Shown here in pieces: positions 7,676-9,415 of a stretch of DNA of 9,415 bases. This stretch comes from Candidatus Rifleibacteriota bacterium (GTDB lineage: Bacteria > Riflebacteria > Ozemobacteria > Ozemobacterales > Ozemobacteraceae). The notes below the pieces were generated by a model. That model was not told the origin of the DNA, ran no database searches, and saw only the letters and a list, made by a program, of their open reading frames with translations. How positions within the stretch are numbered: position 1 is the stretch's first letter; every line of letters begins with the position of its first letter. The translations under genes were made by a program, and so were the position numbers. The DNA is taken from positions 1-9,415 of the forward strand of contig JAKJFO010000162.1 in assembly GCA_022704885.1 (NCBI GenBank). The letters run 5' to 3'.

Positions 7676-9415
7676 TTACATTCCTTCGAAACCACCTGAG
7701 GTTTCAGTTGTGGTTTTGGCCGGTTCTTCTTTGGGCTCTTCTTTAGGCTCTTCTTTGACTGGCTCTTCTTTGGGCTCGTCGGCCGGTTTCGCTTCACTGC
7801 CGGTTTCGATAGCGTCAAAACCGCCGGTTGCAGCTGCCGGTTCTTCCTTTTTTTCTTCGATCGCATCGAAGCCGCCAGAGAATCCGCCTTCGGCTGGTTT
7901 GTCCGCCGGTTTTTCTTCGATTGCGTCAAATCCACCTGAAAAGCCACCTTCGGCCGGTTTGTCTGCTGGCTTGTCGGCCGGTGCCGGTGTGGTGTCAGCT
8001 GGCAGAGGCTTGATTTCGCCCGGTTGTACTTCAGGAACTTTTGGAGTCTGAACGCTTGCGGCAGCATCGTCTTCGTTCGGCAGATAGATGTCTTCAGTGC
8101 CCATGAGCGGGTCTTCGAAGATCGAACTGTTTTTTGCCGCACCGGGAACTTCGGTCAGGCTGGGCAAAGTTACTTCGCGTGCGCTCAGGCGCTTGTTGAA
8201 TTCTTCTTTGTAAGAGACTTCGGTGGGGTTGAAGCCGAAATAGAACTGGATCGTCGGGGCGTAAGAAACGGTCAGACCGGCTACGACAACGGCAACCATG
8301 CTCATCAGCTTGATCAGGATGTTGAGAGACGGACCGGAAGTGTCTTTGAAAGGATCGCCGACGGTGTCGCCGACAACGGTAGCCTTGTGGTTATCAGAAC
8401 CTTTGCCGCCAAGGTTTCCCGCTTCAACGTATTTCTTGGCGTTATCCCAGGCCCCACCCGAGTTGGCCATCATGATGGCAACTGCGAAACCACAGGCGAG
8501 ACCGCCGACCAGCATACCGATGATGCCGCCAACTCCGAGAACCAGACCGACGATGATCGGGGTGATGATAGCAAGCAGGCTGGGAGCCAGCATTTCTCTC
8601 TGGGCGCCCTTGGTTGAAATTGCGACGCATGATGCGTAGTCAGCTTTGGCACCCTTGTCGCCCTTAAGCAGGCCGGGGATTTCCTTGAACTGACGTCTGA
8701 CTTCTTCGACCATGCTGTGAGCGGCACGGCCGACTGCTTTCATGGTCATCGCGCAGAACGCGAAAACCAGCATGGCACCAAGGAACACGCCGACAAGCAC
8801 GAGCGGGTTCATCAGAGTGACGTTGTAGTAGGCCATGAAGTCGGCCATACTTGCTTTGGCTATCGGAACCGCTTTTTCGGGGCTGACGAAAATGTAGCTG
8901 TCGAGCTGGGATTCACTGAATTTGGCGATGCGCAGAAGGCTGATGCGAAGCTCTTCGATATAGGCGCCAAGCAGAGCCATGGCAGTCAGAGCGGCTGAAC
9001 CGATGGCGAAACCCTTTCCGGTGGCCGCGGTAGTGTTGCCGAGAGAGTCGAGAGCGTCAGTGCGTTTGCGCACTTCCGGGCCCATTTCTGACATTTCGGC
9101 GTTGCCGCCAGCGTTGTCGGCGATTGGACCGTAAGCGTCGGTGGCCAGAGTTATGCCGAGCGTCGAGAGCATACCGACTGCGGCAATGCCGATGCCATAG
9201 AGACCCATCGAAGGATCGGCGAAACCATTGGCGAAGCCGTAGGCAAGAATGATGCCGAGGCCGACGGTGACGACCGGAATACCAGTCGACATCATACCGG
9301 TTGCCAGACCTTCGATGATGACGGTGGCGGGGCCGGTGGTGGCCTGTCCGGCTACTTCCTGCGTTGGCGGGTAGTCGCCGGAGGTGTAGTATTCAGTTGC
9401 CCAGCCGATGATGAT
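7676..9415 (-). CDS. hppA: Membrane-bound ion-translocating pyrophosphatase (C-terminal part, with long repeat tail)
   Basis: The gene runs off the window edge. The 579 residues visible cover the second half of a polytopic enzyme that couples pyrophosphate hydrolysis to H+ and/or Na+ export. Family blocks seen in order are Gly-Trp-Ala-Thr-Glu-Tyr-Tyr-Thr at the edge, Asp-Ala-Tyr-Gly-Pro-Ile-Ala-Asp-Asn-Ala-Gly-Gly, Gly-Asn-Thr-Thr-Ala-Ala-Thr-Gly-Lys-Gly (9040-9011), and Gly-Asp-Thr-Val-Gly-Asp-Pro-Phe-Lys-Asp-Thr-Ser-Gly-Pro-Ser (8371-8327). Ala and Gly at the two positions that carry Lys and Thr in K+-independent enzymes mark the K+-dependent type. The H+ versus Na+ determinants lie outside the window. 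After the last conserved helix (about 8325-8267) come about 195 extra residues (8266-7679), acidic and Pro/Lys/Glu-rich, with repeats and a final Gly-Gly-Phe-Glu-Gly-Met. Two stop codons (TAATAA) end the gene, ahead of the terminator. The enzyme call is certain; the tail's role is unknown. Confidence 0.96.
   Translation of the reverse strand: MIIGWATEYYTSGDYPPTQEVAGQATTGPATVIIEGLATGMMSTGIPVVTVGLGIILAYGFANGFADPSMGLYGIGIAAVGMLSTLGITLATDAYGPIADNAGGNAEMSEMGPEVRKRTDALDSLGNTTAATGKGFAIGSAALTAMALLGAYIEELRISLLRIAKFSESQLDSYIFVSPEKAVPIAKASMADFMAYYNVTLMNPLVLVGVFLGAMLVFAFCAMTMKAVGRAAHSMVEEVRRQFKEIPGLLKGDKGAKADYASCVAISTKGAQREMLAPSLLAIITPIIVGLVLGVGGIIGMLVGGLACGFAVAIMMANSGGAWDNAKKYVEAGNLGGKGSDNHKATVVGDTVGDPFKDTSGPSLNILIKLMSMVAVVVAGLTVSYAPTIQFYFGFNPTEVSYKEEFNKRLSAREVTLPSLTEVPGAAKNSSIFEDPLMGTEDIYLPNEDDAAASVQTPKVPEVQPGEIKPLPADTTPAPADKPADKPAEGGFSGGFDAIEEKPADKPAEGGFSGGFDAIEEKKEEPAAATGGFDAIETGSEAKPADEPKEEPVKEEPKEEPKEEPAKTTTETSGGFEGM
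7721..7771 (-). repeat. Lys-Glu-Glu-Pro repeats in the pyrophosphatase tail
   Basis: Four Lys-Glu-Glu-Pro units (three directly adjacent, one separated by a Val) sit near the C-terminus, giving a 12-bp period in the DNA. They probably form an extended charged spacer between the last Gly-Gly-Phe-Asp-Ala-Ile-Glu motif and the terminal Gly-Gly-Phe-Glu-Gly-Met. Confidence 0.8.
7850..7969 (-). repeat. Tandem 60-bp repeat encoding two identical 20-residue units
   Basis: Two adjacent units (7969-7910 and 7909-7850) encode the same 20 residues, Pro-Ala-Asp-Lys-Pro-Ala-Glu followed by Gly-Gly-Phe-Ser-Gly-Gly-Phe-Asp-Ala-Ile-Glu-Glu-Lys. The DNA copies differ at 12 of 60 positions by my count, all silent. 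A third partial copy, Gly-Gly-Phe-Asp-Ala-Ile-Glu, follows at 7825-7805, and the protein ends with the related Gly-Gly-Phe-Glu. Confidence 0.9.

Follow-up and report, generated by a model that had tools for sequence, protein, structure and literature searches.

A repeat-bearing C-terminal tail on a lineage of Riflebacteria membrane pyrophosphatases, a candidate docking array

The window, meaning the whole 9,415-nucleotide stretch of DNA analysed here, belongs to a Riflebacteria (Ozemobacteraceae-like) bacterium and carries a minus-strand frame, 9415..7676, whose translation gives 579 amino acids ending in SGGFEGM*. The frame is open at the window edge, which is the gene's 5' end, and the gene start lies outside the window. 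Its product is recognizable as the C-terminal portion of a membrane pyrophosphatase (mPPase): Pfam family PF03030 covers residues 1-378 of the open frame (E 1.2e-149), and no other Pfam family was found on the 579 residues at E<=0.001. Thirteen NCBIfam models of sodium-translocating or V-type pyrophosphatases match the protein as well, each under its own whole-protein cut-off, probably because the window holds part of the protein. The protein contains GNTTAATGKG, which we take to be the motif as in K+-dependent mPPases. The alanine of GNTTAA.GKG and a glutamate in TM6 (DLYES) mark the K+-dependent Na+-pyrophosphatase subclass; the homologue P0002 has both, and the window covers GNTTAATGKG only. 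The gene product is probably a K+-dependent mPPase that pumps Na+. Just 3' of the stop codon lies a hairpin with a T-run (12-bp stem, 4-nt loop; 1 of 200 shuffles as stable). A consensus scan listed no minus-strand terminator, although folding gives the hairpin 7648..7618; the scan probably missed it because two T's are counted into the stem. The features of the gene are as follows.

8261..9415, minus strand: C-terminal part of the mPPase core, residues 1-385 (PF03030, translation)
8326..8261, minus strand: TM16 (LNILIKLMSMVAVVVAGLTVSY), residues 364-385, the core/tail boundary
8260..7679, minus strand: tail, residues 386-579, 194 residues past the last helix (translation)
8150..8260, minus strand: juxtamembrane segment APTIQFYFGFNPTEVSYKEEFNKRLSAREVTLPSLTE, helical in the P0002 model (H757-770, block pLDDT 77-86)
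8066..8128, minus strand: conserved linear island SSIFEDPLMGTEDIYLPNEDD (DPL[ML]GTED count, conservation), modelled in P0002 without a confident fold
8006..8038, minus strand: weaker conserved stretch VPEVQPGEIKP (alignment conservation)
7850..7972, minus strand: repeat region, residues 482-522, two adjacent copies (21-residue match)
7916..7936, minus strand: GGFDAIE copy 1, residues 494-500
7856..7876, minus strand: GGFDAIE copy 2, residues 514-520
7805..7825, minus strand: GGFDAIE copy 3, residues 531-537
7715..7777, minus strand: acidic/Pro linker EPKEEPVKEEPKEEPKEEPAK
7679..7699, minus strand: C-terminal SGGFEGM-COOH (F at -3, a hydrophobic residue at 0)
7618..7648, minus strand: hairpin and T-run, a likely intrinsic terminator (folding, z -3.3)

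The rest of the window holds several other genes. Three consecutive plus-strand ORFs occupy 176-3563; the sole Pfam match of the first is a spectrin repeat under the family cut-off, and the second and third, with no Pfam match at E<=0.001, carry RRRAFTLVE near their starts, presumably a type IV pilin- or pseudopilin-like N-terminus. A plus-strand gene at 3628-4233 has a lipoprotein-like start (LLAGCGG) and a FecR domain. At 4260-6131 (plus strand) a membrane protein with CHASE2 and SpoIIE-phosphatase domains adjoins a convergent STAS-domain protein (6141-6485, minus strand; Pfam), and the two look like a partner-switching regulatory pair. The gene convergent with that of the mPPase (6563-7576, plus strand) encodes an aldo-keto reductase with a C-terminal ferredoxin-like 4Fe-4S domain.

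A preliminary description of this DNA had reported an mPPase with an unusually long tail at 7679-8266. Translation and homologues agree on the extension, and the span was right to within two codons. We distinguish four parts: a juxtamembrane helix, the island SSIFEEDPLMGTEDIILP, an acidic linker of Pro, Ala, Glu and Lys that carries the GF[DE]xΦ-acid repeats (Φ, hydrophobic), and a terminal F-x-x-Φ-COOH. The GGFDAIE copies (starting at residues 494, 514 and 531), the KEEP repeats (five tetrapeptides) and the terminal GGFEGM that the description had listed are all present; it had passed over the DPLMGTED island (8128..8066) and the one pattern common to the repeats and the C-terminus. The tail of the window protein has a net charge of -24 over the 190 residues counted and is rich in Glu (16%), Pro (12%), Ala (12%), Gly (9.5%) and Lys (9%), with no Cys.

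The repeats have a period of 20 residues, with a 21-residue match, KPADKPAEGGFSGGFDAIEEK, in which one Lys is common to both copies; Tandem repeats at the DNA level (TRF) were placed at 7850-7963, with period 60 and 1.9 copies. The adjacent repeats differ at 13 of 63 bases, and every one of the 13 differences is third-position and synonymous (p ~3e-9, given that 22% of random single changes are synonymous, with transition bias uncorrected). The repeats of the window are under purifying selection, and since their differences are third-position and synonymous throughout, the minus frame is the coding frame. A plus-strand mirror ORF at 7650-8051 (133 aa) is not favoured, as the repeat differences fall on minus-frame third positions.

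Tail length was counted from 20 residues past the TM16 anchor in 123 rows, namely P0001-P0124 without the unrelated P0028, P0001 being the window itself. It reaches at least 100 residues in 56 rows, 40-99 in three (P0022, P0025, P0061) and 0-12 in 64. The 56 long tails, those of the window and 55 homologues, span 124-492 residues. Both P0022 and P0025 are tail-bearing by sequence, yet shortened; the reading of P0025 switches immediately past DPLM, and its tail is likely truncated or frameshifted. Several long-tailed rows of P0037-P0057 have a Lys/Glu-rich stretch of about 40-50 residues, probably helical, before the terminal motif, a stretch absent from the window tail.

The distribution of the tail is narrow. 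A search with the core alone (P0002 residues 1-735 as query, best 120 of 7998 scored), which avoids bias from the tail, gave a sharp divide among the matches listed: the closest relatives are tail-bearing, two of them with shortened tails, and none of the 65 rows P0060-P0124 reaches 100 residues, those after the divide ending close to the last helix with the exception of P0061 (42 residues). A search with the tail alone (proteins of 318-1013 aa, 7995 candidates scored) returned 26 mPPases at E<=1e-11, and the sole other match at E<=10 is unrelated (E 7.9). Where a tail-bearing row comes with an organism name, it is Candidatus Riflebacteria (P0005, P0052, P0055, P0056), Candidatus Ozemobacteraceae (P0026) and bacterium CG2_30_54_10 (P0051, partial). 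As a control we used 80 of 589 mPPase loci, none titled Riflebacteria; the 78 with an anchor, which was not found in L065 and L072, have 0-14 residues counted from 18 past it. The GF-repeat part of the P0037 tail, compared with proteins of 238-756 aa (the 7989 candidates sharing most words, all scored), gave two matches at E<=1, both with PF03030, and no carrier besides PF03030 proteins. Relatives of the window tail were found neither in viral contigs nor in plasmid records. At this sensitivity and in the length ranges searched, the GF array is private to these pumps.

In a FastTree phylogeny of 85 cores, a branch with local support 100 separates all 55 tail-bearing rows from the short ones. 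The tree comprises those 55 (P0022 and P0025 included) and 30 short rows (P0060-P0062 and 27 of the 62 rows P0063-P0124); it omits the fragments P0010 and P0026 and the window, and is unrooted, the chosen outgroup not forming one side of a branch. Of the short rows, P0061 lies closest to the tail-bearing ones; its 42-residue extension has LGFNP..YK in common with the juxtamembrane part and contains no island and no GGF, a possible sign of stepwise tail origin or of loss in P0061. The tail is lineage-specific, and the simplest explanation is that it arose once, in the ancestor that these pumps share; it is conserved across the clade as sampled.

Conservation within the tail is uneven. Among 37 aligned tail-bearing rows the juxtamembrane segment opens with GF.P and continues as a helix. 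The island follows as the longest well-conserved run of the tail (17-18 residues), with P0002 positions D794 to P805 conserved at 81-97% (M797 at 70%) in the same 37 rows and its flanks, 781-788 and 806-819, at 19-54%. DPL[ML]GTED is present in 45 of the 56 tails, and 11 depart from the pattern. Between the window protein and P0002, identity is 378/388 in the core and 150/177 aligned positions in the tail; tails evolve faster than cores yet retain their motifs. Rows P0039, P0040 and P0041 have identical cores, but their tails differ in length (324, 352 and 366 residues) and in GF sites (11, 13 and 12, respectively): the number of GF motifs shifts quickly while their sequence is kept.

The GF motifs exceed what composition alone would yield. 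Past its first 60 residues the window tail contains six matches to [GSAD]GF[DESGN], against a shuffle mean of 0.08, and none of 500 shuffles reaches six. In 51 of the 56 tails no shuffle of 500 reached the observed count; the others are P0014 and P0034 (1 of 500 each), P0032 (2), P0024 (3) and P0023, whose single motif was matched by 31. By this pattern the linkers have 1 to 20 motifs, up to 20 in the long-tailed clade and 2-5 in many tails. In 48 non-redundant tails, D or E directly follows the Phe at 73% of 310 internal GF sites, and where an internal site reads GFxxΦ (Φ = F, I, L, M, V) the next residue is D or E at 122 of 143 sites against a background of 21%, counts in which copies inside one tail are duplicates and hence not independent observations. 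The long-tailed clade could dominate this count and was scored apart: over all 56 tails, GFxxΦ is followed by D or E at 99 of 104 sites in that clade and at 62 of 79 elsewhere, against a background of 19%. At least one internal GFxxΦ[DE] is present in 48 of the 56 tails and none in the other eight.

The C-terminus is similarly constrained, with Phe at -3 and Phe, Leu or Met as the last residue (position 0) in 47 of 47 complete non-redundant tails, a set that leaves out eight near-duplicates, the cut-short P0022 and P0025 and the partial P0051. With duplicates kept, 55 of 56 tails have this ending, and only P0051, annotated as partial, does not. Among the 65 rows P0060-P0124, which have short tails or none, 32 show the same F..[FLM] ending, and there it looks like the end of the hydrophobic TM16 (e.g., TVAFHIL); the terminal motif is therefore notable only in that it closes a long hydrophilic chain. 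The preliminary description had singled out GGFDAIE as the motif, and although this sequence does occur three times, the pattern is broader: GF[DE]xΦ then D/E in the internal repeats, or a C-terminal F-x-x-Φ.

With the N-terminal half of the window protein outside the window, an AlphaFold2 monomer of the homologue P0002 (45 rows) was modelled in its stead. Its core is well predicted as the 16-helix mPPase fold, and of 37 structure matches at E<=0.001 the first 36 are mPPases (TMt 0.85-0.91). Residues 781-939 have pLDDT <50; past the juxtamembrane helix the model offers no confident fold for the tail, which is consistent with disorder, without proving it. The 85-aa stretch past TM16 gave no match better than E 0.29 among PDB sequences. 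In the available text on plant mPPase, the even-numbered helices have their N-termini on the cytoplasmic side (PMC8657866), which would put the end of TM16 and the tail on the extracytoplasmic side, as the preliminary description had also held. We infer this location from the topology of the family, and "periplasmic" is an assumption.

The reading we prefer, and hold with roughly even confidence, is that the tail is a multivalent tether or docking array for a putative envelope partner. The layout is two-tiered, with a single membrane-proximal island and, along the linker, GF[DE]xΦ-acid repeats in several copies that are matched by an F-x-x-Φ at the free carboxylate; a fixed island, acid-capped F-x-x-Φ copies and a C-terminal copy make up the pattern expected of a disordered spacer that bears short linear docking motifs. 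The Pro/Ala/Glu/Lys linker would work as a flexible spacer, and the island and GF motifs may be short linear docking elements for a putative periplasmic or outer-envelope partner. The internal copies might mimic the C-terminal one, with Asp or Glu replacing the terminal carboxylate. Binding would then be multivalent and tunable through copy number, and could position the pump, for example, beside a Na+-consuming machine, or fix it to the cell wall or outer membrane. The preliminary description had suggested a periplasmic linker to another envelope component with short binding elements; its linker with short binding elements fits the conservation pattern, the envelope component being a putative binding partner. 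Counting against docking, the GGF array was found on no other protein of 238-756 aa, and there is thus no sign of a shared docking system. The eight tails that lack an internal GFxxΦ[DE], the 11 that depart from DPL[ML]GTED, the P0023 motif count that shuffles often reach and the F..[FLM] endings of pumps with short tails or none also weigh against it. More tentatively, and with the odds against it, the tail could be the ligand half of a docking system of Riflebacteria envelopes, in which a receptor reads GF[DE]xΦ plus carboxylate, a second site reads SSIFEEDPLMGTEDIILP and repeat number sets avidity.

That no other protein of 238-756 aa was found with the array would suit self-association, with Gly-Phe stickers and acidic Pro/Ala spacers clustering the pumps into FG-repeat-like patches and no dedicated receptor. 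GF-type motif counts that reach 20 in single tails of the long-tailed clade, copy numbers that differ among rows with identical cores and the lack of a confident tail fold in the model would all agree with this. Many tails have only 2-5 copies, however; mere stickers would require neither the acid that follows GFxxΦ nor a fixed position at the C-terminus, and net charges of -20 to -44 (seven tails computed) would hinder dense packing when ionic strength is low. We regard self-association as unlikely. Slightly less likely again is a regulatory role, in which the tail folds back on the extracytoplasmic face and one of its elements, be it the juxtamembrane helix, the island or a GGF motif, sits at the exit channel to regulate pumping or sense Na+. 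There is a precedent in the Thermotoga mPPase, where, in the available text, a small inhibitor sits in a hydrophobic cleft beside the exit channel, at extracytoplasmic loops, and locks the channel closed (PMC6530997); motions on the periplasmic side are treated in PMC12614893. The pLDDT of 77-86 in the juxtamembrane segment and the conservation of the island speak for such gating, but the island itself, at pLDDT <50, is not predicted to dock onto the core in the monomer, and 150-450 further residues with many repeats would be needless for it.

A hydrophobic C-terminus might instead be the ligand of an extracytoplasmic C-terminus-recognising protease or PDZ protein, the rest of the tail being an entropic spacer or passive bristle. 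The near-invariant F, L or M at the last residue (all tails except the one annotated as partial) and the low-complexity, fast-changing linker are what such quality control would lead one to expect. It leaves the island and the internal acid-capped copies unexplained, as it does repeats that differ by synonymous changes only in the window, and we consider it improbable. A frameshift or assembly error past TM16, which the preliminary description had raised for about position 8270, is ruled out for practical purposes by the 55 homologous tails; the third-position differences and the hairpin with T-run directly after the stop also speak against it. P0025 and P0022 may be such cases, but they are separate records, and no error of this kind was found for the window.

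If the docking system is real, a pyrophosphate-driven Na+ pump would be physically coupled to another envelope machine. The usual view of mPPases is that of homodimers that stand alone. A tail with two sorts of conserved short motif across the sampled clade is sequence evidence that the pump, in at least one lineage, has a partner or assembly state on the extracytoplasmic side. The tail offers a concrete bait and the motif a concrete handle for such a partner, and the clade is a natural experiment in repeat-number tuning.

Several known systems share parts of this design. TonB- and TolA-type proteins are inner-membrane proteins with Pro- and charge-rich periplasmic spacers, and the mPPase tail resembles them in its Pro/Glu/Lys-rich linker, which would point outwards from an inner-membrane protein. 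TonB-like proteins have an N-terminal single TM, a Pro-rich spacer and a folded C-terminal domain; we rejected a TonB-like identity because the pump has a many-helix core and no folded end is predicted (P0002 781-939), and the tail has short motifs instead of a predicted folded receptor-binding domain. Repeated short acidic-Phe motifs (F-x-x-Φ) in disordered chains are also found in eukaryotic gamma-ear/adaptor ligands and FG-nucleoporins, which are alike in motif style and differ in compartment and kingdom; the likeness is drawn as an analogy, homology not being claimed. Within the pump family, a close comparison is the K+-dependent Na+-pumping mPPase of Thermotoga maritima (PDB 4av3), which the P0002 core matches at E 9.5e-144 and the P0002 model at TMt up to 0.90; the PDB chain has 735 residues, whereas the tail-bearing pumps add 124-492 past the last helix. 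The preliminary description knew of no pump with such a tail, a claim that is too broad, as C-terminal mPPase extensions, an OmpA-like one among them, are already in print (PMC11210485), different in kind. In the available text of that review, Paucibacter-type mPPases (Paucibacter sp. KCTC 42545, 810 aa) have a C-terminal domain of about 110 residues past the last helix that the authors liken to OmpA, its role being called open (PMC11210485). An OmpA-like or other known domain was considered for the present tail and rejected, as PF03030 is the only Pfam match at E<=0.001; the tail further differs from the Paucibacter domain in its repeats, its lineage and, in the homologue modelled, the lack of a confident fold. 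No published description of the present tail was found in the open-access literature, a scope with most subscription journals outside it.
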